Assembly (NCBI GenBank): GCA_918797485.1
Contig: CAKKNE010000003.1
Location: forward strand, 2,728,001 to 2,792,000
Source of the DNA: Pelagomonas calceolata
Lineage: Eukaryota > Sar > Pelagophyceae > Pelagomonadales > Pelagomonadaceae
Direction of reading: 5' to 3'
DNA: 64,000 nucleotides
Shown: in pieces, positions 3,130-60,380 of the stretch
Position numbering within the stretch: position 1 is the stretch's first letter
Layout of the letters: every line of letters starts with the position of its first letter
Made by a program: the position numbers and the translations under genes
Notes under the pieces: generated by a model
What the model saw: only the letters and a program-made list of their open reading frames with translations
The model's database searches: none
Told to the model about the DNA's origin: nothing

Positions 3130-3152
3130 GCTAGCGGCAGAAAGACTCTAGC
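3130..3152 (-). promoter_or_regulatory. recurrent promoter palindrome, copy 1
   Basis: The reverse strand reads GCTAGAGTCTTTC-TGC-CGCTAGC. It lies about 76 bp upstream of the oxidoreductase start at 3228 and about 175 bp upstream of the divergent membrane protein gene. Confidence 0.65.
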
Positions 3153-3227
3153 AAGCAAGCTCTCCGACTTTTAGAGAGAGGCATACGTGGCTGCACACAC
3201 AGATCGCTGCGACCGACGCTGCGAACC

Positions 3228-4478
3228 ATGCTCTCTCTTCGCCGCGCCACAACACGCGCGCTCACAGCGAGGCGCCTCTCCACGAAACGCGAGTACGATC
3301 TAGTCCTCTTCGGCGCGACGGGCTACAGCGGCCGCATGTGTGCCGACTATTTGCTCAGGACTCATAAGGGTCTACGGGTGGCGCTGGCGGGCCGCGACCG
3401 GGCGAAGCTGGAGAAGGTCGCCGAGAGCTGCGCCGTCACACCACGAATCGTCATAGCGGACGCGCAGGACGCCGACGCGTTGCAGCGGCTGGCAGCCTCC
3501 ACCGAGGTCGTGGCGTCGACCGCGGGGCCCTTCCGCAAGTACGGGTCGTTGCTGGTCGAAGCCTGTGCGCAAGAAGGCACCAGTTACGCGGACATCACTG
3601 GGGAATCAGGGTGGACGCTGAACATGGCCGCGCAGCACCACGAGACCTGTGTTAGTACAGGTGCGATCATCGTGCCGCAGGCGGGCTTCGACTCTGTTCC
3701 CTCTGATATTGGTACCATGCTCGCAATAAAACACCACACCGCAAAAACGGGCGCACCACCCTCAGAGATAAGGACCTACGTCACGTCCATGCGCGGCGCG
3801 CGCTTCCAGGGCGGCACGGTCGACACGCTGGCTCATGAATTGGCCGAGCCGATACGGCCTGTGAAGCCGTCTGCGGTCCGTTCCGCCACGAAGACGAAGA
3901 TAGACTGGACCCACGGCACCAAGCCCTGGCAAACTGTGCAACTCAACGGCAAAACTCGATACCTGTCGCCCTTCATCATGGCCGGGGCGAACTGTCCCAT
4001 TGTTAGAAGGTCGAACGGTTTGTTAGACTACAAGGATGGTTTAGTGTATTCGGAAGCCATGGCCCTGCCTTCCTTGAAGAGTGCGGTGCAGAACTTCGCG
4101 GTTCTAGGAATAGGGACGTCTCTCTTGAAAATGGGGATGCTTGATTTTCTGCGGAAACGGGGCATGGTGCCGGCAGCCGGCGCGGGGCCCACGCTCAAGC
4201 AAGCGCGGCGGGCGTCCTACGAATATGTGATTGTGGCGACGGGCGACGATGGTTCGAGATCAGAGACGACGTGGCGCGGGAACGGGGATCCCTCCGCGAT
4301 CGCGACCACCATTTTTTTGATGGAGACGGCCCTCGGATTGCTGGCGAAGCGCGGTTCTGGAGAGGGGGGCGTGCTGACGCCCGCGGCTGCTTTAGGCGAC
4401 GACCTCTGGGCGCGGCTTCGATCGGCGAAGTGGGAGGCGGCGGACGAGGTGCCGGCCGTGACGGTCGAGCACGCGTGA
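3228..4478 (+). CDS. saccharopine-dehydrogenase-like oxidoreductase (SCCPDH / trans-acting enoyl reductase family)
   Basis: 416 residues and intronless. A basic, Ser/Thr/Arg-rich N-terminus (MLSLRRATTRALTARRLSTK) suggests a mitochondrial presequence. The Rossmann fold starts at about residue 24 with DLVLFGATGYSGRM (nucleotide-binding GxxGxxG variant). The family signatures STAGPFRKYG and YADITGESGW lie at about residues 97-130, and FDSVPSDIGT near 155. These match SCCPDH-like NAD(P)-dependent oxidoreductases rather than true lysine-pathway saccharopine dehydrogenase; the substrate is unknown. The ATG follows a palindrome-bearing promoter and is the first in-frame ATG of the open frame. Confidence 0.88.
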   Translation: MLSLRRATTRALTARRLSTKREYDLVLFGATGYSGRMCADYLLRTHKGLRVALAGRDRAKLEKVAESCAVTPRIVIADAQDADALQRLAASTEVVASTAGPFRKYGSLLVEACAQEGTSYADITGESGWTLNMAAQHHETCVSTGAIIVPQAGFDSVPSDIGTMLAIKHHTAKTGAPPSEIRTYVTSMRGARFQGGTVDTLAHELAEPIRPVKPSAVRSATKTKIDWTHGTKPWQTVQLNGKTRYLSPFIMAGANCPIVRRSNGLLDYKDGLVYSEAMALPSLKSAVQNFAVLGIGTSLLKMGMLDFLRKRGMVPAAGAGPTLKQARRASYEYVIVATGDDGSRSETTWRGNGDPSAIATTIFLMETALGLLAKRGSGEGGVLTPAAALGDDLWARLRSAKWEAADEVPAVTVEHA

Positions 4479-4556
4479 TCTAACGTTAGGTGTGTTTTAT
4501 TGGGTCGCGGCGACGGCGTAAAGGACGCCAATAGCTGCGCGCAGGGTTTCCAACTT

Positions 4557-4580
4557 GCTAGTGTCTTACAGGCCGCTAGC
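4557..4580 (+). promoter_or_regulatory. recurrent promoter palindrome, copy 2
   Basis: GCTAGTGTCTTAC-AGGC-CGCTAGC, close to consensus, 193 bp upstream of the kinase ATG at 4773. It lies inside the artefactual 5' extension of the kinase open frame, which supports the downstream start. Confidence 0.7.
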
Positions 4581-4772
4581 GCGATTATTTTTTGGGAGCT
4601 CGAGTGCCGGGAGCTCTCCGGGAGGGAGTCTCGACACGCTTGCATAGGCCTGCAATTGCCGTTGGAAACAGCCGCACACGACACGCAACGCGGATTGAGC
4701 TGCGAGAGGCGTGCTGCATCGCTGGCACAAGGCAACCCCAAATCGAGAAAAAAAAGAAGCAGCGGCGGAGCG

Positions 4773-7274: not shown

Positions 7275-7291
7275 GTATGTAGTACACAATC

Positions 7292-10086
7292 TTAGACGAT
7301 GCGCGGCTTCTTGGCCGCCGGCTCAGAGGAATCAGGGTCCCAACCGACGCGGACGAGCGCCTCCCACCAATTTCGAGAATTGGACCACGCGTTCCACGCG
7401 ATTTTTTGGGAGTCCGTGCGGTCCTTGTAGTCGACGTCCGCCATCCCACTAATTGAGCTGTCGTCGTAGGCGCGCGCGAGGGCCTTGATGTCGTACTTCT
7501 CGTCGTGCAAGGGGTCGACGCCCGCCGAGAGCGCCGCGGCCGCGAACTTGCGCCAGGTCTCGACCGTCGGCGCGCCGCAGGGCGCGGGCCGCGCCCCGGC
7601 GCCGTCGGCCGCGAGTCGTCCGAGGTCCACCGCGCGCCCGTGGACGAGGGCCGTGAGCCCGTGCTTCACGACGGTAGCCGTCTGGATGGCCTTGCCGTTG
7701 GCCTGGTTCGCGGCGATGGCGGCGCAGCTCTCTCCTTGTGAGAGGCGCTCGCAGGACACGTCCCAGGCCTTGGGCTTCTTCGACCTGTGCGCAAATCAAC
7801 CAGGTGGCGTGCGCCGTCGATGGCGCGGAGGTCACGATCCCGACGCGCCGCGACGTTTGATTTTCGCACTGCCTTCGACGGCTTCTCGACGGCGAGCGGC
7901 CACGCCGCGAACGACTTCGGGCCCCGGGGCAGCGCGATCGTCACGCCCGTGTCTTCGTCGGCCGAAACGGCGACCGACAGGCCGAGCTCGCGGCCGGCGC
8001 GGTCGATGAGCGCCGCCAAGTCGTCCGCGCCGGCGCCGAAGCGCACGCCGATCTCGCGCAGCGCCGCGGCCGTCGTCGGCATGGAATAGGCGCAGTTTTT
8101 GGCGAGGTGGTCGGGGAGCACGGTGGCCGGCGCGAGGTCGTGGGCCCGCGCCGCCGCCGCGCGCCACTTCAATATCCGATCCAGCATCGCCTCGTACTTG
8201 GCCGCGCGGTCGGCCTGGCCGTTCTTGCGCCATCCTTCCAAGCGGCGCGCCCAGCTCAGTTCGGCGCTTATGACCGGCCCGGCGCCCGCTGCGAGCTGGT
8301 CGGGCGGGATGGAAGAGACGTCCGCGCCGGCGGCCTCGAGCTCGGCGCGCCGCTCGTCGGCCCGCGCCCGCTCGCGGCGCTCGGCGTCGACGACGAAGGC
8401 CGGCGGCGGCAGGCGCACCTGGGCGTTGCCGTCCGCGACGGCGCGGCCCCGGAGGGCGCACGAGTAGACGTCGTAGGACGCGTAGCTGCCCTTCCGCGTC
8501 TCTCTATGTAAATAACCCCGCTGAACGAGCGGCACGAGGAAGCCCTTGAGCGCGTCCTGGGTGTAGAGCTTATCAGTACCAGGTCTCTGCCGCAACAGCG
8601 GCGCGAGGGCCTGCTGGGCCCGCGCGTGGCCCGCGGGCACGTACGTCGAGCCATCGGAACTATTCCGCTTGCCCCGGAAGCTCCCGCTCGCGAGGAGGCA
8701 CAGGTCCGTCGCCGCGCATTGAGTAGAAGCCGCGGCGACGCACAATAGTCGACACGGCCCCGTGAAGTCGCGCTCGTCGCCCTTGTTGCACAAGTCGCAC
8801 GCGCCGCAGCACCACGTGTCTCCAACCGGCTCCTTGAAGTGCTGCAGGATGTGGCGCCGGCGGCAGCCCGAGTCCTTCTCGGCAAAGGCGCGCATCGCTC
8901 TTATAGATTCATGGTACCTATCTAAAGCGGCTCCTTCCAGTCCCTTCTTATAAAAGTCCGACTCGTACCTCGTAAAACCAACGGCGTTGTGGTACAAGAC
9001 GCACGACGCGGGCAGCCCGTCGCGCCCCGCGCGGCCGACCTGCTGGTAGTACTCTTCCAATGTTTTCGGTGGGGACACGTGGATGACCCGCCTCACGTCA
9101 GGTTTGTCGATGCCCATGCCGAAGGCCACCGTGGCCACGACGCACTCAACTTTACCGGAGAGGAAGTCGTAGTGCGCTTGTTTACGGTGGTCGTCGCCGA
9201 GGCCCGCGTGGTAGGCCGCGATCGTCGTGTTCACTGGAGCGAGCTGCCTTAATGAAGCGGCCGTCGCCTCGACCTCGTTCCGCGTCGAGCAGTAGATTAA
9301 CGTCGAGCCGTTGCCCTTGCCTAGAGATTTTGCCACGTCCCTTAGTACTGTCCCTAAACCGGAGGCGAGGGCCTGGCACTTCAATGTAAGGTTCGGCCTA
9401 TCTACGGTCTTCGCGGCGACGTGGAATCCTGTTCTCAACTTCAGGGAGCGCTCGATGTCTCTACGGACGTGGGGCGGCGCCGTCGCCGTGAGGGCCACGA
9501 GGGGCACTTGTAAATCTCCCCTCAGGTCGCCCAACCTTCTGTATTCTGGTCTAAAATCGTGGCCCCACTCGCTCACGCAGTGAGCCTCGTCGACGGCGAT
9601 CAGGCGCAAATCGTTCAGATTCTGAGCTAGATTTGAACCCAGCGCCTTCTCCGGCGTCGCGTAGACCAACCGGTAGTGGCCTTGCTTCGCTTTTTGTTCC
9701 ACACTAAAATCGTGCTGCGCGCTCCCCAGAAAACACGCGACGTCCATACCTTTCTTCGCGTTCAGGGCCTTGCACTGGTCCATCATGAGCGACACGAGCG
9801 GCGAGATGACTAAGACACATCCCGTCTCATGTAAAAGGGCGGGCACCTGGTACACTAAACTCTTGCCCGAGCCCGTCGGCCAGTAGACGGCGACGTCGCA
9901 GCCCGCGCACGCGCGCTCGACGGCCTCCTCCTGGCCCGCCCGGAACTCGGCGTAGCCCCACGTGTCCTTGAGCACCGCTTGTAATTGCTTGCTAGATACG
10001 GTCCGCGGCGGCGGCGGCGGCTTGGCCTCGGCGGCGGCCATCAATGCGTCCATCTCGGCGGAGTTGGCCCAGTCGTCGTCGTCCAT
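7292..10086 (-). CDS. RECQ: RecQ-family ATP-dependent DNA helicase
   Basis: complement(join(7292..7784,7880..10086)), 899 residues. Helicase motifs run in order: WPTGSGKS (Walker A, about 70-76), [14 protein letters not shown] (Walker B, DEAH), ALTATAPP and QVGRAGRDG (motif VI). The RecQ zinc cluster follows ([10 protein letters not shown]...CCGACDLC, about 405-435), then a winged-helix region. After the intron comes a C-terminal helix-turn-helix (HTH_40-like: [20 protein letters not shown]...LGRL), which is found in WRN/bacterial-type RecQ C-termini. This exon joins in phase 2 across the introner and completes the domain, supporting the splice model. Expected role: 3'-5' unwinding in recombination and replication-fork repair in the nucleus. 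Its 3' end lies 17 bp from the convergent kinase gene. Confidence 0.93.
7785..7871 (-). mobile_element. introner element (subfamily B) forming the RECQ intron
   Basis: An 87-bp element with gene-strand ends CAGTGCGAAAATCAAA and GGTTGATTTGCGCACAG. It is flanked by a 7-of-8 duplication (GTCGAAGG/GTCGAAGA). The intron is 7785-7879 (95 bp), GT from the duplication to the terminal AG. It separates the helicase core from the C-terminal HTH. Confidence 0.9.
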
Positions 10087-10539
10087 GGCTCTTCTTCTTG
10101 CTGGCGATCTCCCGCGGAGGGCGATGCGTGTGCTTGTGCCTCGGCGCAGTCGCTGCGCTGCTGCCTCGACGGCAATGCGTGTGAGCCTCGATACCGTGGC
10201 CGCACAGGTCGCAATCGGTGCGGAATCCGGTTGCCGGCAGTTCTGTGGTCTAAATTTAGCCTCCGCGGCTATTTCACTCGCTCTGATTCAAGCTTAAATT
10301 TAAGCTTGGGCTGGCGCGGCGCGAGAGGATAGTTCACAGCGTCGTGTAACACACTAGCAAGCCGCGCTCACGAGTCCTAGCACCGTAACAACGGCCAGCG
10401 CCTCTCGACAGCGCTCCTGGATGACGTCTCGAGACGGCGTCCGCGCCGGGGCGGCGTCCGAGCTCACGCAGAGGCCGCGCCGAGAGAGTGCCGAGAGAGA
10501 GAGAACCAACTTTAGAAACACAGGAGGGGGACCGACTCT
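10087..10539. other. intergenic space between RECQ and the Rab gene
   Basis: No gene is seen. The region holds an 18-bp perfect palindrome (AAGCTTAAATTTAAGCTT, 10290-10307) next to a shorter one (CTAAATTTAG, about 10253), and one degenerate copy of the promoter palindrome at 10337-10358. Confidence 0.6.
10337..10358 (-). promoter_or_regulatory. recurrent promoter palindrome, degenerate copy
   Basis: The reverse strand reads GCTAGTGTGTTAC-AC-GACGCTG. The left half matches fully and the right half lacks the final AGC. It lies about 250 bp upstream of the RECQ start. Confidence 0.5.
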
Positions 10540-11154: not shown

Positions 11155-11472
11155 GCTGGATATATGTAGGTGACCCGGGGGAGCTTGTGACGGCGTGACG
11201 TGCGGAGGTGCTGTGTCTGTCGTCGACAGGCGGTTCGCGCGCGCACGACGGCTCCCTCTGACCGTGGCTCCCTACGTAGCTTTGGTGATTCGCGTAGAGG
11301 AGCTTGCTCCCGAGATTAGCTAGCGGCGTGTAAGGCACTAGCGAAGCGGACGCAATCGCAAAGCAGCCGCGGAGCGCGCTATTAACCGTGCGAGGGCGAG
11401 TGGCAAGAGTGTTTGCTACCCTTTGTGGCATACCGCTACGTTTGCAGCCAATTGCTAGAGCTGTGCTACACC
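11155..11472. other. divergent promoter region (Rab / mitochondrial-type protein)
   Basis: 318 bp between two divergent starts. It contains one strong copy of the promoter palindrome and no gene. Confidence 0.6.
11318..11341 (-). promoter_or_regulatory. recurrent promoter palindrome, copy 3
   Basis: The reverse strand reads GCTAGTGCCTTAC-ACGC-CGCTAGC. It lies 164 bp from the Rab start and 132 bp from the divergent start at 11473. Confidence 0.7.
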
Positions 11473-11936: not shown

Positions 11937-12798
11937 TTAACTCGACGCGTCGAACGACGCGAGGACTGGCGGTCCCGGGAACGCCGTCAATACCGCGTCC
12001 GCGGCGAGCGCGTTCCAGCGCAGGCGCACGCGGGCGGGCGTACCTTCTTCGATGCGCTCGGCGACGCAAAAAGAAATGCCGCCGGGCGCGTCGACGGTCA
12101 GGCCGCCATTGTCGGACCAGCCGTACGCCTCGACTGCGCTGTGAAAGGCGGCGTCGTCGTCGGGAAAGGCGTCGGTCCGCTCGCGCGACAGGACGCACCG
12201 CCGCAGCGCGAGCGTCTTATCGCTCTCCGGCGCGAAGGACGCCGTCAGCGTGCAGCGCCGCTCGCCGTCCGCGAGAGCAACCTCGAAGGACACGCCACCG
12301 CTCCGTAACAAGCTGGGCCCGACGGCGGCGCCACGGCCATTGACCTGTGTGGAAATCAAATTTCAGGCGCCCAACGGCTTCCACGCCATCGACGCGAGGT
12401 GCCTCCTAGCTACTGTGGTTGATTTCCACACAGCCATTGACCGTAAAACGGCCCAGCGCGCCTTGTTTGTACGACCCCGCCGGGATGTCGCGCCACTCGA
12501 TCGTGTCGGCGCATCGGTCGCAGCCCGAGGCCGCGAGCGCTGCTGCAGGTACTTTGAGCACGTGCGTCACTTCGTCGTCCTCTCGGCGCAAGCAGGTGAT
12601 CGCGACCGAGTCCTCGTCGACGACGGCCGCGGAGGCGTCATAGACCGTCTTCGCGCCGAACCACTCGCCGACGTGGTACGCCGTGAAGCTCTCCCACTGC
12701 TCGCTGTCCGTGGCGGCAACGACTGCTCTTGATCGGCGCCGCGGCGACGGCGTGAGGTAGGCATGGGTGACAGCCGAAATGCAGAAGAATTTGAGCAT
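11937..12798 (-). CDS. plastid-type lipocalin-like protein (DUF3598-like), interrupted by an introner
   Basis: complement(join(11937..12344,12442..12798)), 254 residues. A hydrophobic N-terminus (MLKFFCISAVTHAYLTPSP) plus a basic Ser/Arg stretch suggests a signal peptide and plastid transit region. The mature part starts EQWESFTAYHVGEWFGAKTVYDA, which resembles the opening strand of DUF3598/CpcT-type beta-barrel proteins of cyanobacteria and plastids. Two further beta-rich repeats follow. The exons join in phase 0 (GRFT then VNGRGAAVG). The family assignment is tentative and rests on the WxxFxxxHxGxW-like start; function is unknown. Confidence 0.65.
12345..12433 (-). mobile_element. introner element (subfamily A, reversed) in the DUF3598-like gene
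   Basis: An 89-bp element with perfect 15-bp ends (CTGTGTGGAAATCAA and its complement) and a perfect 8-bp duplication (GTCAATGG on the gene strand). The intron is 12345-12441 (97 bp). Its internal CCATCGACGCGAGG core is on the opposite strand to that of the peroxiredoxin copy, showing that either orientation can be spliced. Confidence 0.92.
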
Positions 12799-13180
12799 CG
12801 CTGCGTGCTATCTTGGCTGTGTGCAGGCTCCTGCTCTCCGTAGCAGTGCAGCTCCCGGAGTGCAGCAACCAAGCAGCACTGGCGCAGCAGTAATGCAAGT
12901 TATGACTTTTGAAGCCGCGCGCAGCGTCCTGTCGCGAGTCTTTGGCACACGACGCGCCGCTCAAGCTCGGCTTGCTTTGTGCTTGCTAGTGTCTTACCGG
13001 CCGCTAGCTCAACTGCTCAATGAGCAACTCGCTCTCTCTCAAATGCGTATAGTATACAGCAAGCTTATGTCAGAGTAGCCAGGCCCTCATTCGAGGGGAG
13101 AGGCGCTCGGTGGCGAGCGCCACGGAAGAACCGTCGCCGTCGACGGAGTGGGGCGCGTCGGCGGCGACGACGCATGGTGT
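12799..13180. other. intergenic space upstream of the DUF3598-like gene
   Basis: Contains one near-consensus promoter palindrome and no supported gene. The overlapping short open frames are shadows of the RING gene or random. Confidence 0.55.
12985..13008 (+). promoter_or_regulatory. recurrent promoter palindrome, copy 4
   Basis: GCTAGTGTCTTAC-CGGC-CGCTAGC, differing from copy 2 by a single central base. It is 187 bp upstream of the minus-strand start at 12798. Confidence 0.7.
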
Positions 13181-15582: not shown

Positions 15583-15934
15583 CAGCGGCGACGGATGGTG
15601 GTCCTGCGTATCGCTGTGGCGAGCGTAATATGGCTGCAGCCGGCAGTGTCGCCAGCACACGCCCTAGAACTCGGACTGGAGTTGAGAGATTGCAGTAGCG
15701 CTGTCAGTGCAGCACGAATAGTACTTTTGCGTGCGAGAACAGCTCGCAGACACGGCCGCGTCGGCCTCGCGTTTTTGCAAGCTAGCGTGAAAGAGACACT
15801 TGGATTGCAGTGCGTTTGCCAGCCTCAAAATCGCCGTGCCGCATTGCATACGCAACCAAGCATCCCTCACGAAAGCCATCGTTACTCACCGCTGTAACGC
15901 AGCACCAACCTTTTGCAACCGGCACCAAACAAAA
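15583..15934. other. divergent promoter region (NOM1 / amino-acid transporter)
   Basis: 352 bp between divergent starts. No gene is seen and one promoter palindrome is present. Confidence 0.55.
15781..15803 (-). promoter_or_regulatory. recurrent promoter palindrome, copy 5
   Basis: The reverse strand reads CCAAGTGTCTCTTTCA-CGCTAGC. The left half is degenerate. It is 199 bp from the NOM1 start and 132 bp from the transporter start. Confidence 0.55.
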
Positions 15935-19068: not shown

Positions 19069-19458
19069 GCCTCCCCGATCGTCCCTTCCCCTATAAGCAC
19101 TCGGCTTTCGATTTTCCTTGCGGTAGGAGCTGAGAACATCGCGGCCGGCCGACGCGGCGGAGAGATGTTTGGGATGTATAGTTACGGTGCTAGGACTAGA
19201 CTTGCTAGTGTCTTACCTGCGCTAGCTAAATGGTAAGCCACAAAAACACTCGCCCTGGCTGACGCGAGCGTTGTGTGCAGTGCTTGCATCGTCTATTCGA
19301 CCGCTGCGACCGCCGCGCTCGTCGCACCGCATCGCTGGTTTGCAGTGCTCCAGTACCTGGGCATCCAGCCTGAGCAGTGCTGTGGTGTCACTCACGCGTG
19401 TGCGTGGTGCGTCCCCTGACGAGTGCTGTCACTCCAACTGTGCGTGCGTCCTCTAACG
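19069..19458. other. intergenic/promoter space before the thioesterase gene
   Basis: 390 bp with no gene seen and one palindrome copy. The 3' flank of the proline-rich gene shows no obvious structure. Confidence 0.55.
19204..19226 (+). promoter_or_regulatory. recurrent promoter palindrome, copy 6
   Basis: GCTAGTGTCTTAC-CTG-CGCTAGC, 233 bp upstream of the thioesterase start. Confidence 0.7.
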
Positions 19459-21208: not shown

Positions 21209-21227
21209 CTAGCCAAAGGCACTAGGC
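21209..21227 (-). promoter_or_regulatory. recurrent promoter palindrome, short degenerate copy
   Basis: The reverse strand reads GCCTAGTGCCTTTGGCTAG. It is about 130 bp upstream of the coiled-coil gene and about 150 bp upstream of the divergent glycosyltransferase. Confidence 0.45.
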
Positions 21228-26298: not shown

Positions 26299-26588
26299 GC
26301 TGGCGCTCTGTCCGCAGTTCTAAGCTACGGTGGGCTGCGGTTTTGCAGTGAGAGCAGTGCTGTGCCTTCCGGTCGTTTGTGGCCGGGAGTGTGTTATAAA
26401 TGGCGGCGGCTGGTGAGCTCAACCGCTGGGTTATCAAGAGCCCTAGACACCACCGCGGTGCGTAGTTTGCTCCGGGCACAGCGAGTACAGCTGCTGCCCC
26501 TTGCGCCAAGTGATTCCTAGTGTGTCTAGACTCGGAAGCGCGCCCGAACGCCATCGACGCGAGGCATCAGAGTAAACTTCCCACAACC
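26299..26588. other. intergenic space with an isolated introner-core fragment
   Basis: No gene is seen. At about 26540-26569 it carries GCGCCCGAACGCCATCGACG and the next few bases, nearly identical to the interior of subfamily A introners but without their terminal repeats. CCTAGTGTGTCTAGAC at about 26516 matches half of the promoter palindrome. Confidence 0.5.
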
Positions 26589-27540: not shown

Positions 27541-27674
27541 GACGGTCTATTGCAACGATTGCTGCTTCGGATCGATTTGGTAGCGTATACTGCTTATGAA
27601 ACGAGCTGCGATTGCATTCAGGACGCTGGCGCCGACCCACAAGCCCTCTTTACGTGTGTCGTGTATGCGAAACT

Positions 27675-27694
27675 CTAGTATGTCTTACTGTAGC
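27675..27694 (+). promoter_or_regulatory. recurrent promoter palindrome, degenerate copy
   Basis: CTAGTATGTCTTAC-TGTAGC. It is about 265 bp from the cbbY start and 200 bp from the peroxiredoxin ATG. Confidence 0.5.
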
Positions 27695-27894
27695 AACCCG
27701 AGCCTTTCTCCCGTTGCGGTTGTCTGAGGCGTGCCTCCGATGACGGGAGGACAAGCCTCGACGCCGTTCGACCAGTTTAGCAAAGCCTCTCCTTCAGATG
27801 GCTGACATTGCTCGTTGAGTGTGGAACGCGCGCGGGCCACACAGGCAGCAAAACGGAGCCTCCAGCCGCGAAACGTTCGCGCTCGGACGCAGCC

Positions 27895-28715
27895 ATGGTG
27901 AAAGCCGGGGATGCGATCCCTGATGTGAAGGTCCATGCAGGCAGCAGTGTCCCTCCCACAAAGCAGCCTCCGCGCAACTCGCGCGACGTCGTCGCGCGAG
28001 GGCTGCGTCACGAGCCGAAGGCGACCGTTGCGCGAAGAACGTAGAGTGAGCTTCGAAACGGTCGTTCGCACGCGCCCGGCCGAAGCGAGACACGAAGCGC
28101 GACTGGAGAGCCGAGAGACAGCACGCACACGCCGTCACGCACGCAGGACGGCCTCGAGTTCAACCCGCCCGTCTTCCTCGACGTGCGCAAGGCCTGCGCC
28201 GGCAAGAAGGTCCTGATCATGGGCCTGCCCGGCGCCTTCACGCCCTGCTGATCCGAGTTCCAGGTCCCCGGCTACGTTTGTGAACTGTGTGGAAATCGAA
28301 TTTCAGGCGCCCGACGCCATCGACGCGATCTCACTGGTCGCTTTCCGCACAGGTCGCGAAGAGCGCCGAACTGAAAGCCAAGGGGATCGAGAAGGTCTTT
28401 GTGTACTGCGTGAACGACGCGGCGGTCATGCGCGCCTGGGCCAAAGACCAGAACATCGACGGGACGGGCCTCGTGACCTTCTGGGCGGACAACCTGTCCG
28501 TCCTCACCAAGGCCCTGGGCATGGAGATCACGCACAACGGCCCCTGCGGCGACCTCGGGCCGGGCCGCTGCAAGCGCTTCGTCGCGTGCGTGACGGACAA
28601 TACGGTGGACTGGGTCCAGGTCTCGGAAGCTCCCGACGACCCGGCCGGCGACAACGACGCCGAGGGGCCCGTGACGGCGGAGACGCTCGTCGAGAAGGTC
28701 CTGACGCTCCTCTGA
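27895..28715 (+). CDS. type II peroxiredoxin with in-frame TGA at the catalytic position (probable selenoprotein)
   Basis: Proposed exons: 27895 to about 27948, 28147-28275 and 28353-28715. The first exon (MVKAGDAIPDVKV) and the family core KKVLIMGLPGAFTPC-TGA-SEFQVPGY are separated by an ordinary intron with acceptor CACGCAG at 28146; its donor (27931 or 27949, both phase 0) is uncertain. The TGA at 28249-28251 falls exactly where PrxII/Prx5 enzymes have the peroxidatic cysteine (GAFTPTCS), so it is read as selenocysteine. Coding sequence continues in frame on both sides, and an introner lies 24 nt further on. A SECIS-like hairpin follows the true stop. Predicted thiol/selenol peroxidase reducing H2O2 or organic hydroperoxides. 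No clear plastid leader unless translation starts at 27808. Confidence 0.85.
28285..28352 (+). mobile_element. introner element (subfamily A) in the peroxiredoxin gene
   Basis: A 68-bp element with ends CTGTGTGGAAATCGAA and GGTCGCTTTCCGCACAG. The interior is TTTCAGGCGCCCGACGCCAT followed by CGACGCGA. Flanks TTTGTGAA/GTCGCGAA are a decayed duplication (5 of 8). The intron is 28276-28352 (77 bp); phase 0 joins PGY to VAKSAELKAKG. Confidence 0.88.
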
Positions 28716-34907: not shown

Positions 34908-34961
34908 TCCGCAGGGGGCAAAAAGTTTCGCGGCGCGCCGCGGCCCCTTTTGCCCCCTGCG
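34908..34961. repeat. long perfect-arm hairpin
   Basis: CCGCAGGGGGCAAAA (34908-34922) pairs with TTTTGCCCCCTGCGG (34947-34961). The interior contains the palindrome GCGGCGCGCCGC. 15-bp perfect arms with a GC-rich centre are unusual here; this could be a small foldback element or a structured RNA. Confidence 0.65.
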
Positions 34962-35301
34962 GCAGATAATGGTCCCGGCTGCGCGCCGCGGGTGCTAACG
35001 GGCCCCGCGTTCCGCCGCAGTGCGGGTATTAACGGGTGCTAAGCCCGCTGTCCGCCGCGGCGCGCTGGCGTCAAGAATTGAGTCTTCGTCATCCGGGATT
35101 GCGTTGGTTTATCGACGCGGCGGCGGCGTACAGGTTTGGATGTCTCTTGAGAGCAGGACCTCGTGCCGCGACCAGAGAGCTGCGGGACTGGGCGTTGCTG
35201 CACCGTTCGAGTCCGAGGGTACTTCTGAGTAAAACGGCGAGGTGGCCTTGCCCTGGGCGGCTCTGTGGGCTACAAAATACGCTTTGCCGCCTGGGCTGCA
35301 A

Positions 35302-35325
35302 GCTAGCGGCTTGTAAGACACTAGG
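35302..35325 (-). promoter_or_regulatory. recurrent promoter palindrome, copy 7
   Basis: The reverse strand reads CCTAGTGTCTTAC-AAGC-CGCTAGC. It is 515 bp upstream of the gene starting at 34787, the longest spacing to a minus-strand start in the set. Confidence 0.6.
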
Positions 35326-37773: not shown

Positions 37774-37795
37774 TCTAGTGTCTTTATGCGCTAGG
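37774..37795 (+). promoter_or_regulatory. recurrent promoter palindrome, copy 8
   Basis: TCTAGTGTCTTTAT-GCGCTAGG, 225 bp upstream of the PUB-WD40-PFU start at 37549. Confidence 0.6.
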
Positions 37796-37867
37796 CAAAA
37801 GTTAGCCGGCGCCGCCCACTAGTCCTAACACACACACCGTAACAGTAAAGGGAAACTTAAAAAGAAA

Positions 37868-39434: not shown

Positions 39435-39820
39435 CGTGCGGAGGCAGCCCTTCAGCTGCGCGCACGTTCACCGCAGCCCCTGCGTGCACGCTCACCAAGG
39501 CAGTGTGGTCCTTGGGATGTGTCAGGCAGACGGCGTCTTCTGCAGTGGCTGCAGGTAGGTCACCGCGTAACGGGGCTGCGATACGCAACAGCCGGGCTGC
39601 GATGCAGCTGCGAGGGGCAGCAATTCAGCTCAAGCGCCGAACAAAATGCAATGCTAGTATGTTGCTACGCTAGGTCTCCCAAAAACACTGTTCTGGCGCC
39701 GCAGCGGTGCTCACTGCTCGCAATTCTGACATTAATTACTGCTGCACCCACCTTCAGTTAGATTCGCGGCACAAGAAGGCTGCCCAATGTTGCCAAGCGC
39801 AATCTAGGGCAGCCGCAAAA
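39435..39820. other. divergent promoter region (K+ channel / alpha-kinase)
   Basis: 386 bp with one promoter palindrome copy. No gene is seen. Confidence 0.5.
39653..39674 (+). promoter_or_regulatory. recurrent promoter palindrome, copy 9
   Basis: GCTAGTATGTTGCTA-CGCTAGG. It is 219 bp from the K+ channel start and 147 bp from the alpha-kinase start. Confidence 0.6.
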
Positions 39821-44590: not shown

Positions 44591-44615
44591 GCTAGCGTAT
44601 AATAGGCACACTAGC
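44591..44615 (-). promoter_or_regulatory. recurrent promoter palindrome, copy 10
   Basis: The reverse strand reads GCTAGTGTGCCTATTATA-CGCTAGC. It is 140 bp from the PLD start and 65 bp from the secreted-protein start, a compact divergent promoter. Confidence 0.65.
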
Positions 44616-46932: not shown

Positions 46933-47481
46933 GCCATGCCTGCGTGTTTTTTTGTTATGTGTGTCTACAACGATGCGTTTCGCTCGTTGTGTCCAGGACG
47001 CGCCTCAGTCGAGTCGTCAATGTCGTCTGTCAAGGGGTTCAGTGGGCCCGCTTCAGAAAAGATTAAGCTATTTTTTTTCGGTCATCGTCGGCGCTCAGCG
47101 TTTTTGATGTTACTTGGACGCTGGCTGGTACCGCTCTGCGTGCAGTGATGCTACGACTGTGTGCGCAGCGCGCAGCGTGCAACAGCACGACTGCAGCGAT
47201 GGAAACAATAGGTAATTGATGCAAATGCGTGGTCAGAGCTCCCTGCGCAGCCTTGATTGCCTTTTTGCTTGTCTTGCTAGTGTGTTTATATGCCGCTAGC
47301 TCGATCCGCGCGCGGCGCTCGTGCCAAGACGAGCTCGAGGAGCCAGACAAGACGCGCGGAGACGCGCCACTACATTGCTTTGCAGCCCTGCGCCGGCGAC
47401 GCCAGCCGCCGAGGCCGACACATCGCAGTAGAGACACCACAGGAGAGAGGCTAGCCAACAGCTGCGCGCGCCGAGAGACGG
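46933..47481. other. divergent promoter region (zinc-ribbon protein / WW protein)
   Basis: 549 bp with no gene and one palindrome copy at 47276-47300. Confidence 0.5.
47276..47300 (+). promoter_or_regulatory. recurrent promoter palindrome, copy 11
   Basis: GCTAGTGTGTTTATAT-GC-CGCTAGC. It is 182 bp upstream of the WW-domain start and 344 bp from the divergent start. Confidence 0.65.
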
Positions 47482-49308
47482 ATGACCTTCTCCGAGGCCG
47501 AGCGCGACCACCAGCGCGCGCGCGAGCTGCGCACCAAGGAAGACGGGTCCCAGCAGAAGCGCGCGAAACGCGCGGCCAAGGCAAAGAAGAAGAGCGACAA
47601 AAAGGCCGCGAAGCGCGCCGCGAAGCGCCTCAAGCGGGACAAGAAGAAGCGGAAGGCGGCGCCCGAACCTCAATCGTCGTCGTCGAGCGCGTCGGAGGAC
47701 GATGAGGATGAGGACGAGGACGCCGCGATCGAGCGCGAGCGCGCGGCGCGGCGCGAGCGCGCGGCGGCGGCCGAGGCGCGCGCCCAGGAGCGGGCCGAGA
47801 ATCCTGCGCCGGCGCCGGCGTACTACACGGTGCTGGACATTGGTTCCGCATCGAAGCCGCAGGACGCCGCGGCCATCGCGGCGGCGGCGCTGCTGCCTCC
47901 GGAAGTTCCGGAGTCGTGCGTCATCCGGCCGCGGTCGCCCTTGCGCGTCGAGGGCCCGGCGGCGCCGCCGGCCCCGGCGTACGAGGGGCCCGCGCGGCCG
48001 CCCGCGGAGGGCCCGGCGCCGCCGCCCCGGCCCGCGGGCCGCGGGCTCGGGGCGACCAAGCCCGCCTGGATGACCCAGGGGACCGCCGCGCCCGCTCCGG
48101 CGCCTGCGCCCGCGCCCGCGGCGGCGAACCCGTTCGCCCCGCCGGCGTCGTACGCAGCTCCGACCGGCGGCCGCGGCCGCGGCGCCACGATGCCCGCCTG
48201 GATGACCCAGGGCACGGCCGCGCCCGCCGCCGCCGCGCCAGCCCCGGCCGCATTTGCTCCGCCAGCGTCGTACGCGCCGGCACGCGCCGCCGCCGCGCCG
48301 GCCCCGGCCGCCTTTGCTCCGCCAGCGTCGTACGCGCCGGCACGCGCCGCCGCCGCGCCGGCGCCCGCCGCACCGGACTACGACGCGGCCATGGCGGCGT
48401 ACGGCGAGGCGATGGCGGCGACGCGCGAGGCGGCCACGCGGCAGCAGCCGCCGCCACAGCAGCAGTACGGCGCGCCCGCGACACAATACAGCGCGCCCCA
48501 ATACGGCGCGCCCGCGCAAGGCCAAGCGCCGCAATACGGCGCGCAGGGCGGCCTGCCGCCGCCCTGGCAGGTCGTCCACGCGCCGGGCCAGCCGCGGCCG
48601 TACTACTACAACCCCGCCACGGGGGTGACGACGTGGGAGCCGCCGCCGCCGCAGCCCTCCTACGCGCCGCCCGCGCAGCCCTACGGCGCCTACGCGCGGC
48701 CCTACGGCGCCCCGCCGGCGCAGTCGTACGGCGCAACACAGGCCGCGGCGGCCGCGGCGCAGCCGTACGCCGCCCCGGCTCCAAACCAGTACGGCGCCGC
48801 GGGGATCCGGCCGTCGCCGACGATGCAGCGCTACGGCGCGGCGGGCATCGCCCAGGCCGCGGCGCCGCGGCCGACCGTCTCGGCGGACAAGATCGCCGCC
48901 GCGCAGGCCGTGGCGGCGCGCTTCGTCCCCGGTTACCGGCCGCCGGGGCAGGCGGCGGCGCGGCCGGCGCCGGCCGCGGGGGCGCCGGGCCGGGGCCGCG
49001 GGGCCACGACGCCCGCCTGGATGACCCAGGGTACCAAGCCGGCCGCGCCGTCGGCGCTCGCCGGCGGCCGGGGCCGCGGCGCCACGATGCCCGCGTGGAT
49101 GACACAGGGCACCGCGACGGCGGCGCCGGCGCCGGCGCCCGCGCAGGTATCCGCCGAGGTGACGGCCGCGACGGACGCGCTCTTCGCGTCCCTTGGAGGG
49201 GAATTTGCGGCATCGGTGGCAGCGCCCGCTTCCGCGGCCGACGACGAGGTGTCGCGCGCGCAGGACGCGGCGCGGCGCATCATGGCCGCGCGGTTCGGGC
49301 AATCGTGA
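47482..49308 (+). CDS. WW-domain protein with GRGRGATxPAWMTQGT repeats (splicing-factor-like)
   Basis: 608 residues. A Lys/Arg/Glu/Asp-rich N-terminus (KRAKRAAKAKKKSDKKAAK) and acidic tract precede Ala/Pro-rich sequence. A single WW domain lies at about 355-385 (two Trp in PPPWQVV and VTTWEPP). The motif GRGxGAT[KMT]PAWMTQGT occurs four times (about 189, 230, 508 and 530). WW domains bind proline-rich ligands such as SF1 and formins, and GRG...PAWMT motifs recur in RNA-processing proteins, so a splicing role is likely but unproven. A 60-bp exact or near-exact tandem duplication (48241-48360) and an AP(A)n run show recent repeat expansion. The opposite strand is open because of the repeats. 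Confidence 0.75.
   Translation: MTFSEAERDHQRARELRTKEDGSQQKRAKRAAKAKKKSDKKAAKRAAKRLKRDKKKRKAAPEPQSSSSSASEDDEDEDEDAAIERERAARRERAAAAEARAQERAENPAPAPAYYTVLDIGSASKPQDAAAIAAAALLPPEVPESCVIRPRSPLRVEGPAAPPAPAYEGPARPPAEGPAPPPRPAGRGLGATKPAWMTQGTAAPAPAPAPAPAAANPFAPPASYAAPTGGRGRGATMPAWMTQGTAAPAAAAPAPAAFAPPASYAPARAAAAPAPAAFAPPASYAPARAAAAPAPAAPDYDAAMAAYGEAMAATREAATRQQPPPQQQYGAPATQYSAPQYGAPAQGQAPQYGAQGGLPPPWQVVHAPGQPRPYYYNPATGVTTWEPPPPQPSYAPPAQPYGAYARPYGAPPAQSYGATQAAAAAAQPYAAPAPNQYGAAGIRPSPTMQRYGAAGIAQAAAPRPTVSADKIAAAQAVAARFVPGYRPPGQAAARPAPAAGAPGRGRGATTPAWMTQGTKPAAPSALAGGRGRGATMPAWMTQGTATAAPAPAPAQVSAEVTAATDALFASLGGEFAASVAAPASAADDEVSRAQDAARRIMAARFGQS
48241..48360. repeat. in-frame tandem duplication in the WW-protein gene
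   Basis: Two adjacent 60-bp units encoding AFAPPASYAPARAAAAPAPA differ by about one base. In-frame, so it adds 20 residues per copy; the near identity indicates recent slippage. Confidence 0.75.
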
Positions 49309-50042: not shown

Positions 50043-50528
50043 GGTTGTTGCAGGCTGAGTGGTGGCACTGAGTGGCTGCTGAGAGCTGCACTGTATGGCG
50101 CCGGATGATCCGTAGCTCTTCGTGCCGTGCAAGAACGAGTTCCGGTAAGCCCTTTTATCGTCGTAATGATTGTGCAACACGATTAATTGGCTACCACGGA
50201 GCCGCAAACTCAGCCGACTGATCAGCTAGCGTGCAGTCTTACTAGCGTATCGACAGCTCCCGACGTATAATCGCGTCATAGGTCCACTGAGGTGCGATAA
50301 TCACGTCATTGGTCCTCTGAGGAGGAGAAAGCACGCTACGCCGTCGACGCGAGGACGCGCGCCCGACGGACGCGAGGGCGAGGCCCCCGCCCCACGCCGT
50401 CGACGCGAGCCCCACCCAAGGAAAGCAAGCAACTGTCACGGATGACTACACGGCGAATCTAAAAGGGGGTGCGCGGCGCCCCTGCGCACGGACCCCGACG
50501 GGCGGCCCACATGTTTTGACATGCGAAC
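50043..50528. other. intergenic region upstream of the lumen-protein gene
   Basis: 486 bp. It has a palindrome copy at 50225-50246. A direct repeat, CACGCCGTCGACGCGAG (near 50337 and 50394), is similar to the introner core CACGCCATCGACGCGAG. No gene is seen. Confidence 0.55.
50225..50246 (-). promoter_or_regulatory. recurrent promoter palindrome, copy 12
   Basis: GCTAGCGTGCAGTCTTACTAGC on the plus strand; the centre differs from consensus but both half-sites are intact. It is 183 bp upstream of the lumen-protein start. Confidence 0.55.
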
Positions 50529-51260: not shown

Positions 51261-52327
51261 CGTCGTCGTCGAAAACTGTGTGTTTAACGCGGTTGAGCGC
51301 TCGTTCTCTCGCCGCGGCGCTCTTCTCTCTCTGCGGCGACGCGATCTACCCGTCTGCCGTGTGTGTGTCGGGCAAAAATACCTCCGCGGCGGGTGCCGAC
51401 CGCGCGTCGACGGCGCAGCGGCGCTCGCCACCATCGACGGGTCAATCGGCGCCGTCCGGGCTCAGTTTTCTCTGAGCACGGCACCAGCGACGCGACGCGC
51501 GCCGCCGTGCGCACCGCTGACCACGCGTGGCTTCCGCCGGTGCAATCTGCTGGCTAGCGCGTCGCATGACGCCGCTAGGTAGCGATGTGCAGCGTGGCAA
51601 GCTCGGCAGCTGTAGGCCGCCGCGGGCGCATTTTTTTGCCAAAAAGCGCAGCGTTGTGGCTCGGTAGTGACCTCTCCGGCTCTGAGTACCCTCTACTACA
51701 CGGTTTGGACGCAGCAGACGGACGTAGCTTGCAATTGGAGCTTCGAGCCCACCAAGATGTGCTACGAGACCGCCTACAAGTAACGCAATTCCAGGGCCGT
51801 AGAGCCCGTCCTGAGGGCCATTTGGCGCGTATGGACGGCCTGCGGGTAAGCTTACAAGATTTAGCTAGCTACATAAACGTACTAGCAGCCCAGCAGCGTC
51901 GCGCAAGCTGGTCGACCGATTGCCGTGCTGCACGGTCGTCCAGCGCACGGAGACCGTAGACTAATGGTGCGCGGCCCGGGCCGCGCGCTCCGCGCCCGCC
52001 AGCGCCTGCCGGGCCATAACCAGGGGTGCCTCTGCTGCGCGCCGCCGCAGAGCCGCAGCGCGTGGCGCTTCGACCCCGACGCCTTGAAAAAGAGTGGCGA
52101 CGACGACGACGACGGCACCTAGCAGGCCGTGCGCGTGCGGCGTCCACGCATTCATGAACATATCGCGTCGGCTGACGAGACGACCAACTAAAAAAAAAAG
52201 ATAGGAATAGCCGTCCGAGGCCAAAAGGGCGCTGCCGACGCGCGGACCGACCGACGACGCTCGAACCGCTCGATTTTTTGCCGCTCCGAGGTGTTTTTTT
52301 GCGCGCACGGTCCCGCGCCCGCAGGCC
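51261..52327. other. large intergenic space between the light-harvesting and ankyrin genes
   Basis: About 1.07 kb. A 124-codon frame at 51585-51959 begins with ATG and contains a plausible coiled segment (SLQLELRAHQDVLRDRLQVT), but nothing recognisable. Its other frames also look protein-like for short stretches, so it is left as unsupported. A palindrome copy lies at 51864-51886. Another palindrome with different spacing lies at about 51553-51578 (CTAGCG...CGCTAG). Confidence 0.45.
51864..51886 (-). promoter_or_regulatory. recurrent promoter palindrome, copy 13
   Basis: The reverse strand reads GCTAGTACGTTTAT-GTA-GCTAGC. It is 442 bp upstream of the ankyrin gene. Confidence 0.5.
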
Positions 52328-53113: not shown

Positions 53114-53141
53114 TTTAAGAGATAAGTAGTACCACAAGTTA

Positions 53142-53822: not shown

Positions 53823-54123
53823 CGCTTTTTGTGTTTTGCGGCGCGCGGCCTGCTTTGGGAGCGCTGTCCTTTTTAGGTGGGTTGGGCGCCTCGCCTGTGA
53901 GGCCGCGTCGGCTGGCGGTTTTGGAGGAGCGTTTGGTCACTCTCAGCAACCGCGTGGCTGCGTAACTGCGCTATGCGCGCTGCTACGCGCTGAAATTGAG
54001 AGTATACTGGGATGCTCAGCAGCATCGGACACCCGGCGCCCCGTCCGATAGAAAAGTCCGTCGGCGGTTCGCCTCACGGCTCGTCCGATAGGTAGATACA
54101 TACTTGGTTCTAGTGGGCTGCGT

Positions 54124-54145
54124 CCTAGTATGTCCATACGCTAGC
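54124..54145 (+). promoter_or_regulatory. recurrent promoter palindrome, copy 14
   Basis: CCTAGTATGTCCATA-CGCTAGC, 302 bp upstream of the PX-protein start. Confidence 0.55.
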
Positions 54146-54469
54146 TCACTAGGTCTTGCGGCTCGCCAATTTACACCAGCGATTGACGGCGCCTTCTAGC
54201 GTCCAAATAGTACATCATATCAACTCCAGCCCAGTTTTCATACACATCCGACGGAACCGGAGCCGACGGCCCGCGCTCGGAGGGCGGGAAAAGAATTCTA
54301 CTAGACAACTCTCGCGTTTATGTTCGTTTCCTTCCGTTTGTTAGTGGTACAGTCCATCTAGGCCGAATCAGTGCCCACTGAGCTACTTTAGATAACCCGT
54401 TAGGGCCGCGCGAATCGGCATTTCCGCGCCTCGCGTTTTATGCAAAAATACCGTCAGAACCTGAATCTG

Positions 54470-54860
54470 CGAGTATCAGCGACGACACCATCCAGATGGA
54501 CCATAACGCCGTTGTTCTATTCACAATCGACCGACTTGCCCGTTCTCCGCGGACGACAGTGCGCACGCGGGGCACTGAATTGGCCCCAGACCGGTGGTTT
54601 ATAAAATAAATTCGCGTTTCAGGCGCTTTAGTAGTGGGACGGGCGAGATAACCGGCCTGAGCGTGTACTACATTGCTCCGAGACCCAAATATGCTGGGCG
54701 CGGCTCGGCCATCCCGCGAGCCCACGATCTTGCTTTAAACGGCTTAATACTTGGACCTGCGACCATCAGCCCGTGTACCATCACCATGGACCTTGACGCG
54801 ATCATTTGTTTCATGATCGACCGACTTATGCGAGCTCCAGATAAAGATGTTCACGTCCCG
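54470..54860. repeat. diverged tandem-duplicated segment
   Basis: Segments of about 90 bp at 54470-54560 and 54763-54855 share roughly 60% of bases by eye, including ATCGACCGACTT and ATGGACC at the same spacing. Conservation of the predicted peptide (IDRL) suggests they were once coding. Confidence 0.5.
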
Positions 54861-55613
54861 AGCGTGGGCAGCAAAAAGTACCCTTCTTATAATGTAGATG
54901 GCATATACTCGTAATTGACTATCGTTGGGGTAGTATGGGGTCCAACGAGACCGCTACGGCGACTACTGGGGGGCCTCGGGTAATTGACGTTTTTACCGGG
55001 AACGAGGCACCAACGGGTCCAAATTACACACTTTTTTCGGGGGCAGATCGGCTCCTGGAGGCCTCTCGGGGTAGGTCTGGTAGTGGGTAAGCGCCTGCAC
55101 CGCTTACGCCATCGATGCAGCAGCCTAGAGGTCTCGGAACCTAGACCTGCCCTAAACTTGCTAAAGCTCCTTTGTCTGCTGAGAGAATTGGCCAAAATAT
55201 GCTGTAAGCGGCGGCGTGTGCGGTGTAGGCGCTTGCACGCGACCACTGCCGACCCAAAGCGAACCCCGGGAGGCCTCCGCGCCGCAAATCGACAGGATTC
55301 CATCGGCGCGGCCGTCATGGCGGGACCGTCAATATCGCGAATTAAAAAAAAATATTTTTTTCGCCCCCCAGTAAGTGTCCCATTGATCTCTTTGGACCAG
55401 TATCGAACCGAACGGTACTCGAAAGGCTGCATGTCGCGTCTCGTGAGCAAAGTAACTGGACGGGTTTCGCGTCACGGGGGCCAGAAGACTCCCGGGTCCG
55501 ATAGAGGGCATTCGTACTTTCTAAGTCCGTTCCCAACTTCATCCGTAGTTCTCATTTCCGGCGGTCCGACGCTGCGGGGTCCGATGCTGCTGAGCATCCC
55601 AGTAGCGCTTATT

Positions 55614-55636
55614 GCTAGTGTCTTTACGACGCTAGG
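55614..55636 (+). promoter_or_regulatory. recurrent promoter palindrome, copy 15
   Basis: GCTAGTGTCTTTAC-GA-CGCTAGG, 220 bp upstream of the ChaC-like gene. Confidence 0.65.
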
Positions 55637-55855
55637 GGGCAAATTTGCCCTTGGCTACGAGCAGCTCGTCAACTCGCAGCCAAACGGCAGTGCCACGCCC
55701 GGCACAGTCGCACGACTCGCCATTCCTGCCGGTGCGTCGCTTAGAACGCAATCTAAAGCTGCACTCGCTGCAAAAGCTAGGTTGCAGCTCGGCACCGCAG
55801 AGCAAAACTGGCGCGGCTCGCCGGTCTTGCGAGCGTCGCCGCCGCCGCCGCGGCC

Positions 55856-56485: not shown

Positions 56486-56492
56486 AGTCTAA

Positions 56493-58684: not shown

Positions 58685-58707
58685 AAAATAAATACCTAAC
58701 ACATGAC

Positions 58708-59964
58708 TCACCAAACGAACCCCGGCGGGCAGTCCAGCCCCCGCCCCGACAGCGCGCCCGGCCGGGCCGCGCACGTCGCGAGGGCAGGCACGAGCTGCAG
58801 TAACCCGATGCGAAGCGTCGGCACTACTAACAAAGCCAGCGCGAAGCATACCGGTGGAGGCACGCGCGCTGGCTCCCGCTTGATGTTTTTGGAGAGCGAC
58901 ACGGCCAACGCCCGACCCTTGCCTTTTCTCCGCAACGCGTCTCTTTTATCACCATACAGGGCGAACTCCGTCTCCGTGCCCACGACGCGCGGCGCCGCCA
59001 TTATGGAGATGGAGAGGCCCGCCGCGAGGCCGCCCAGGACGACCGCCGGAGGGACGTCCATCGCATAATTCGCGACGAGCAGCACGGCCAGGCGCGGCAG
59101 GAGGTTCTTTACTGCTCTGGAACGGGGATGCGCGCCCTTCAGTAGTTTACATTGGGCCACGCACCTCGCACCAGCTAGAGCCGCACAAAGGGCGCCGCCG
59201 CCCACGGCTCGAGGCGCGCGCATCGTGTTCTGCAGGTGGCAGATGCCTCCCGCTACGACTCCTAAGGTTGATGTCAGCAGTAGAACGCCAGCACCGCCGC
59301 AGGCGCCTCCTCGATTATCGTTCGCGTCGCCTAACCGTCGTCGCGCGTCGTAGGGCAGGCCTTTCCCATCCAAAGCTAATGACGACCGCAACAACACCGC
59401 ATCACCAAGAACGTGCGCCGCGGACCCATGTGCAAGAAAATACGTTAAACAGCGCCACCTTTGGTGCCAGCGCCACCGCGAGGTCCAGCGCGGCAAATCT
59501 AACGCGAGGTCACCGAGGAGCGGGGATTGCGTCGAGAGAGCGGCTCCTCTCATTAACCGTCTCCGGTAGTTCGCGTCCCACAACGCTCTAGGACTGAACG
59601 TCCGCTTTCTCACGACAAAACAGCGCCCCATCAATCCGTCGGCGATGACTCGGCCCTGGGAAATGTCCGCTCCCGCGTCGGCCACGCCTGGTAGTGTTAA
59701 TGTAGACGACGCCAGCGTGAGGGCGAAGACGACGACCCACGTAAATGTTATGATTCGGAAGAAGTTGGCCGCGGTCCCGCGGGGCCACAAACCGACCTGG
59801 CGCTGCGGCGCGTCTTTCGCTTTCGGCATATATTCAATATCCGGGCTCCGCGGGCCGAAGACGCCCTTGTCTCCGTAGATGCGTGTTTGGAGCTGCACAC
59901 GTGGTATCGGTGCGACGAGTGCCGTTGCGGCGTGTGCGATGTATGCTGCTGCGAGGGCTCGCAT
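58708..59964 (-). CDS. plastid-type rhomboid-like membrane protein, probably catalytically inactive
   Basis: 418 residues from ATG 59964 (MRALAAAYIAHAATALVAPI), with an organelle leader (HAATALVAPIPR). A first membrane helix (FRIITFTWVVVFALTLAS) is followed by about five more helices. WRCLTYFLAHGSAAHVLGDA is typical of the rhomboid L1/TM2 region (WR.LT..F.H.s..Hl..n). The GxSG serine motif is replaced by VGGGALCAA, and the last-helix His (HxxGxxxG) by PPAVVLGGLAAG, so both catalytic residues appear lost. It would be an iRhom/derlin-like pseudoprotease in a plastid or ER membrane. The family match is inferred from motif spacing. Confidence 0.65.
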   Translation of the reverse strand: MRALAAAYIAHAATALVAPIPRVQLQTRIYGDKGVFGPRSPDIEYMPKAKDAPQRQVGLWPRGTAANFFRIITFTWVVVFALTLASSTLTLPGVADAGADISQGRVIADGLMGRCFVVRKRTFSPRALWDANYRRRLMRGAALSTQSPLLGDLALDLPRWTSRWRWHQRWRCLTYFLAHGSAAHVLGDAVLLRSSLALDGKGLPYDARRRLGDANDNRGGACGGAGVLLLTSTLGVVAGGICHLQNTMRAPRAVGGGALCAALAGARCVAQCKLLKGAHPRSRAVKNLLPRLAVLLVANYAMDVPPAVVLGGLAAGLSISIMAAPRVVGTETEFALYGDKRDALRRKGKGRALAVSLSKNIKREPARVPPPVCFALALLVVPTLRIGLLQLVPALATCAARPGALSGRGLDCPPGFVW

Positions 59965-60380
59965 GGTGCTGCACTGCCTTTGCTCGTTGCTAGATACGCG
60001 TTCGCTGTTGCAGCGTGGCTTCGCTGCACGCTGCACTCTGCACCCCTAGCACAGGCAGCAGAGGTCCGCAGCCGTTCCGCGAGCAGAACTACTGGCAGCG
60101 AAAGATACGGCACAGCGCAGAGACCGCAACGGGTCCCTAAAGTACTAGCTCGCGCCGCGCACCGACATGCAGGCCTTTGCGCACTTGGTGAGGCTAGTGT
60201 GTGTATCGACGCTAGCCTCGGCATTCCAAAGTGAACACTCGCGCGTCGCGCGCAGTTGTGCTTTATCGATAGTCGCGCATCGGCAAGAGCACTCTGAGAC
60301 GCTGCTGGACGAAGCCTGTGAAGCTCAACCTGCGCCGCCGTCCTGGTCTGGAGAGGCGCCAAGACTGCTCAGCGAAGACG
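59965..60380. other. divergent promoter region (rhomboid-like / 2OG oxygenase)
   Basis: 416 bp with one strong palindrome and no gene. Confidence 0.5.
60193..60216 (+). promoter_or_regulatory. recurrent promoter palindrome, copy 16
   Basis: GCTAGTGTGTGTATC-GA-CGCTAGC. The outer bases extend the pairing (GGCTAG...CTAGCC). It is 165 bp upstream of the oxygenase start and 229 bp from the divergent start. Confidence 0.65.

Follow-up and report, generated by a model that had tools for sequence, protein, structure and literature searches.

The 64-kb stretch of DNA analysed here (the window) is eukaryotic and gene-dense, with a GC content of about 0.64. The gene map, built from open reading frames (ORFs), codon usage and Pfam, holds 45 coding stretches that make up 78% of the window; gene starts are ORF-based throughout. 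Among the Pfam families matched were protein kinase, RecQ-type helicase, Ras-like GTPase, fatty acid desaturase, alpha-kinase and chlorophyll-binding. For the light-harvesting protein the top PDB matches were chains named light harvesting protein, EFCPI, iFCPI, FCPI and fucoxanthin chlorophyll a/c-binding protein, which indicates no more than a fucoxanthin-type alga. Scanning the window for Rfam families and tRNAs gave no match. The intergenic DNA carries many copies of a bipartite palindromic element of 22–25 bp, which lies ahead of start codons, has no fixed direction relative to the genes and is nearly absent from coding sequence.

Copies of the element in the window

Word counts, a gapped matrix and shuffles all showed that the palindromic motif described from the letters in a preliminary description is real. 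On our own gene map all 12 occurrences of the word CTAGTGT were outside coding sequence, where 1.0 was expected. CTAGTRTSTT had 9 window matches against 0.09 expected, and CTAGTGTCTT had 6 against 0.01. The gapped matrix was grown from nine seed sites in the window, all of them among the copies named before; recovery of the window copies is therefore partly circular, the word counts and outside contigs are free of this, and only the contig figures are held out. At a score above 20 the matrix found 18 window sites, all 18 non-coding, whereas shuffled non-coding DNA gave a mean of 0.005 sites (200 shuffles). The threshold of 18 gave 20 sites, 19 non-coding and one coding. In 200 control matrices that kept the CTAG arms and had the rest permuted, the mean was 0.14 matches and the largest number 6, and 64% were non-coding. 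Single words discriminated less. GC-rich words outnumbered the element's words in absolute counts at 8 and 9 letters, and in the shuffle test the element word did not exceed the shuffle maximum at 8 letters (9 observed, maximum 11) or 9 letters (7 and 7). At 10 letters it exceeded all 100 shuffles (6 against a largest of 5). The gapped matrix, not the single-word counts, is the strong test.

Eighteen of the 19 copies listed in the preliminary description were recovered, the one at 27675 only at 18.1; the one at 21209 was not, and the copy at 26516–26539 (score 24.4) was missing from that list. The consensus printed there is exact only at 4557, 12985 and 19204, and the other copies deviate from it at one or more positions. 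The window copies, with their matrix scores, are as follows.

3130–3152, minus strand: element copy, 34.2; divergent gap 2957–3227
4557–4580, plus strand: element copy, 33.6; exact consensus; ATG 4773 lies 192 bp downstream
10335–10358, minus strand: element copy, 24.0; right arm degenerate; ATG 10086 lies 248 bp downstream
11319–11342, minus strand: element copy, 31.0; divergent gap, distances 164 and 130 bp
12985–13008, plus strand: element copy, 35.9; exact consensus; adjoining gene models uncertain
15781–15803, minus strand: element copy, 27.1; divergent gap
19204–19226, plus strand: element copy, 35.9; exact consensus; ATG 19459 lies 232 bp downstream
26516–26539, plus strand: new element copy, 24.4; 217 bp before ATG 26298 of a minus-strand gene
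27674–27698, plus strand: weak copy, 18.1; divergent gap preceding a peroxiredoxin-like gene
35302–35325, minus strand: element copy, 32.7; 514 bp before ATG 34787
37774–37795, plus strand: element copy, 32.2; opposite to its gene, which is on the minus strand (ATG 37549)
39653–39674, plus strand: element copy, 30.3; divergent gap
44591–44615, minus strand (best-scoring orientation): element copy, 27.5; divergent gap, 139 and 64 bp
47276–47300, plus strand: element copy, 36.6; divergent gap
50225–50246, minus strand: weaker copy, 20.3; 182 bp before ATG 50042
51864–51886, minus strand: element copy, 27.5; divergent gap between the light-harvesting and ankyrin genes
54124–54145, plus strand: element copy, 27.1; long gap 53823–55855
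55614–55636, plus strand: element copy, 32.7; same long gap, 219 bp before ATG 55856 (ChaC-like)
60193–60216, plus strand: element copy, 25.1; divergent gap, 228 and 164 bp

The gap upstream of the gene at 34035–34787 also contains a 54-bp near-palindrome (34909–34962, 85% self-complementary).

The element in outside contigs

A strict form of the element led to the contigs outside the window. Applied to prokaryote genome contigs, the pattern GCTAGTGTSTTWMN{2,5}CGCTAG matched 16 loci. Eight of these were from Vibrio (8 species), with identical matched letters and one gap base differing in L015, and lay in a 556-codon open frame. Two further loci, L009 and L011 (one Pseudoalteromonas, one Acidobacteria), were likewise inside open frames (218 and 519 codons). 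The ten bacterial loci, with Vibrio counted as one shared locus, were set aside as chance matches, all being inside open frames. The remaining six loci led to four metagenome-assembled genomes (MAGs), namely G001 (titled Spirochaeta MED672), G002, G003 and G004, which their titles suggest to be marine. The element-bearing matches are on eukaryotic contigs mis-binned in bacterial MAGs.

For G001, 176 of 183 contigs were fetched and sorted on composition alone. The tetranucleotide correlation with the window was 0.81–0.90 in eight contigs and at most 0.53 in the other 168. At least 73 kb of this MAG is alga-like (contigs C18, C141, C143, C146, C157, C169, C170 and C182). In these 73 kb the window matrix found 10 sites above 20 and 13 above 18, the latter all outside coding sequence; the remaining contigs (1.91 Mb) had 0 and 2. 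A pattern scan of the whole MAG gave 11 matches, all on six of the eight alga-like contigs, and the pattern read backward gave 0. The alga-like contigs L048 and L054 had no site by the window matrix. In the alga-like contigs alone, CTAGTGTCTT ranked with the most over-represented words, with 6 copies where 0.07 were expected. CTAGTRTSTT occurred at 123 per Mb in these contigs and at 141 per Mb in the window, and was absent from 883 kb of other contigs. Viral contigs searched with two element patterns gave 0 matches for each. The element is specific to the DNA of this alga.

A DNA polymerase alpha N-terminal match in L048 and an acetyl-CoA carboxylase central region in L035 are the gene content expected of eukaryotic contigs. 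The alga-like contigs are probably from the same species as the window or a near one, since an introner-like dispersed sequence is common to both. This family lies around GTGTGGAAATCAA and ACGCCATCGACGCG and was found in the window at 2204–2244, 2608–2660, 7787–7869, 12347–12431 and 28287–28325, and outside it at L035 1499–1537, L035 2256–2395 and L060 6298–6333. For Pelagomonas, a GC content of 63% has been reported, as has a peak of intron lengths near 210 bp, the length of introner elements (PMC9481584). A pelagophyte source of the element is plausible. Repeats 70–145 bp long are internal to the WW-domain gene at window 47987–49144.

The matches in G002–G004 sit where otherwise bacterial contigs turn alga-like in composition, as seen with a bacterial background model whose training set included other stretches of these contigs. 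The contigs of these three MAGs look chimeric near the matches. A Sir2-family protein adjoins the match in L073, and a bacterial-looking peptidase (reading by eye; no Pfam match) lies beside that in L036. L036 and L038 were retained in the site set though uncertain.

Anatomy and placement of the element

The site set comprised 37 sites scoring above 18, 19 from the window and 18 from outside, with the coding match at 1566 excluded. The element was 24 bp long in 16 sites, 22 bp in 9, 23 bp in 8 and 25 bp in 4. It consists of the arms GCTAGTG and CGCTAGC, a centre TSTTAY and a gap of 2–5 bases. C2, A4 and G5 of the left arm were invariant and T6 was kept in 35/37, and G2 of the right arm was kept in 37/37. 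The arms differ systematically, at one place by rule (GCTAGT against GCTAGC). Information begins at a TT two bases before the left arm and stops one base past the right arm; beyond this TT and the final T, the flanks held at most 0.39 bits over 13–14 columns on each side. Column information sums to about 30 bits, with the cost of the variable gap not deducted. Arm pair 1 pairs in 22 of the 37 sites and pair 7 in 28, and no compensatory changes were found, so protein readout fits better than a hairpin. A splice site in the centre (TCTTACAG, or GTAAGA reversed) was rejected, its letters not being kept in most copies by eye.

For the 33 sites with a usable start, the median distance to the nearest start codon was 186 bp (quartiles 149 and 224), and 29 of them were within 60–260 bp. 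The sites cluster at about 130–250 bp ahead of the start codon, and the full spread of 64 to 514 bp agrees with the distances first claimed. For 29 sites with both neighbours known, placement was compared with uniform placement within the same gap. No site was closer than 60 bp to a start codon (6.8 expected), and 26 were at 60–260 bp (16.2 expected, P 0.0002). The outside sites by themselves gave 12/13 at 60–260 bp (7.2 expected, P 0.003) and 0 below 60 bp (2.8 expected, P 0.04). The eight contigs by themselves gave 10/11 (5.7 expected, P 0.005) and 0 (2.2 expected, P 0.07).

Among 5′ gaps of at least 100 bp, a site was present in 18/28 in the window and 11/24 in the contigs, 29/52 when pooled. 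Tandem and divergent gaps carry the element alike. It is usually present once per gap, with a single gap holding two copies, and its density is about one per 3.5–7 kb. Convergent gaps of at least 100 bp had none, in the window (0/4, 1,159 bp) or in the contigs (0/4). The early claim of absence from such gaps holds, the window alone having little power (P 0.18 by length, Fisher 0.028); the pooled comparison of 29/52 with 0/8 gave Fisher 0.005, or P 0.05 when length-weighted. The claim of absence from coding sequence was borne out for all sites above 20, the lone coding match scoring 18.2.

The element had also been said to have a direction. Its asymmetry is real, in the centre and also in the arms, but it has no direction relative to the genes: among sites with an unambiguous gene, 8 were concordant and 11 discordant, as judged from position alone.

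Another intergenic word, GTTACRGTGCTAGGACTAG, followed in some copies by TGGGCGGC, was found in six copies in tandem gaps, 31–304 bp after the stop codon and on the strand of the upstream gene. The copies are at window 19181–19199 (plus), 10371–10389 (minus) and 37811–37831 (minus) and at L033 300–318, 2051–2069 and 4055–4073 (plus), that at 4055 having 4 substitutions. This word is perhaps a 3′-end signal. A looser form of its pattern had one coding match, at L048 5281. Two stretches of L033 (299–435 and 2050–2172) are 5′ gaps of unrelated genes with 78% identity over 137 bp, which stops 25 bp before an element copy.

Candidate function and alternatives

About 190 bp ahead of roughly half of the examined gene starts, the element is probably a docking site for a protein that contributes to promoter opening. 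In budding yeast, general regulatory factor sites precede many unrelated genes, and their sequence is unlike that of the element. Factors of the Reb1, Abf1 and Rap1 type are reported to help to make and keep nucleosome-depleted regions and to act on promoter directionality (PMC11069190, PMC9481977). The likeness is one of behaviour and not of sequence, and we claim no membership in that class. Enrichment in promoter regions, depletion from coding sequence and orientation-free placement are common to both. The element differs in its paired CTAG arms and its length of 22–25 bp end to end. We favour, with some reserve, a promoter-proximal binding site for a sequence-specific factor, working in the manner of the yeast sites.

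A site for one specific factor is suggested by an element that is DNA-level, direction-free, promoter-proximal, bipartite and usually present once per gap. One specific nuclear factor would bind this bipartite site, with one module reading TTGCTAGTGTSTTAY and a related second module reading CGCTAGCT, and 2–5 bases of play between them. The bound factor could be a dimer, a heterodimer or a two-domain protein. The element would lie just upstream of transcription starts, where the factor may keep the promoter region free of nucleosomes, and this open region would permit or insulate transcription on one or both sides.

Several points weigh against such a site. A spacer of 2–5 bases is looser than most rigid dimers allow. 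One match, at 1566 with a score of 18.2, lies inside an EF-hand ORF, and it is probably due to chance. In the distance tests the neighbours were hand-set for several sites, and 54124 and 27674 were omitted. Finally, 23 of the 52 5′ gaps of at least 100 bp had no site above 18, including all four in L048, so the element is not a universal promoter part; some of these gaps may be introns. A bolder version, which we regard as possible but doubtful, is that the element is the main promoter-defining signal of the algal lineage. A dedicated lineage-specific factor would then mark about half of the promoters through the asymmetric CTAG pair of 22–25 bp and determine where transcription may start in either direction, in place of the core elements of other eukaryotes.

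It is unlikely that the element marks a boundary, an insulator or a start of replication and is intergenic only by coincidence. Its single copy in most gaps, its lack of fixed orientation and its absence from all eight convergent gaps would suit such a site. However, tandem gaps carry it as well as divergent ones, so boundaries are not singled out. The density given above is high for replication starts.

Still less likely, in our view, is an initiator-like role, in which the element would be a core promoter element coinciding with the transcription start and TSTTAY the region of the start. A centre that is both conserved and asymmetric, and the clustering before start codons, would agree with it. 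An initiator must point one way, whereas the copies do not; the spread of distances and the 5′ gaps without a copy also speak against it. The mixed direction and these empty gaps together make a basal core element unlikely.

That the copies derive from a dispersed repeat or transposon family, as its ends or remnants, is very improbable. Other dispersed repeats do occur in the window and contigs. CACTA transposons have ends with the letters CACTA, which CACTAG resembles. A repeat end would show shared sequence next to the element, and flank information was low across the 37 sites, whose edges are sharp. Such flanks as were shared were short: window 4557 and L061 2947 have 13 bases in common after the element, and L032 9064 and L033 2198 a few before it (a 33-bp alignment including the element). 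One copy per gap also argues against repeats. The preliminary description had treated the motif as a promoter element; its reproduction in outside contigs and the sharp edges support a promoter-associated element and not a repeat end, and the direction supposed for it does not hold relative to the genes.

An RNA hairpin in the 5′ leader would account for arms that can pair and for a U-G at pair 6 in 35/37 sites in one reading direction, yet it is scarcely credible given the mixed orientation to the gene and the uncompensated breaks at pair 1 (15/37) and pair 7 (9/37). Chance combined with avoidance of TAG in coding frames can be practically dismissed: CTAG, which includes a stop codon, is seldom found in coding DNA, and a large collection does yield matches (the Vibrio locus, Pseudoalteromonas and Acidobacteria), but those lie inside open frames unlike the algal ones, the shuffles and CTAG-armed controls fall far below the 18 sites observed, and the outside contigs reproduced the element.

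The NRF1 and ZNF143 sites of animal promoters are also long, information-rich and common to many housekeeping genes; we know of no sequence likeness between them and the element. In stramenopiles, core promoter motifs (INR, FPR and DPEP) have been described for the oomycete Phytophthora infestans, INR+FPR being 16 to 19 nt, and oomycete core promoters are without a TATA box (PMC3599244). Like the element, these motifs are of comparable length and were found by over-representation, but they lie near transcription starts, DPEP about 25 nt downstream, whereas the element is direction-free and mostly 130–250 bp before the start codon. Open-licence literature on pelagophyte, stramenopile and Aureococcus promoters and on the element's words contained no such element among the listed matches, judged mostly by title; 12-letter pieces of it matched papers whose titles concern beta-thalassaemia and diphthamide. 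The words motif, promoter, intergenic and palindrom are all absent from the main text of the Pelagomonas genome paper (PMC9481584).

The promoter grammar of open-ocean fucoxanthin-type algae seems to have been little read. In one MAG the element marked out the algal contigs, all 11 matches being on alga-like DNA. A signal of this strength should help to place promoters, to track down its factor and to design expression constructs.

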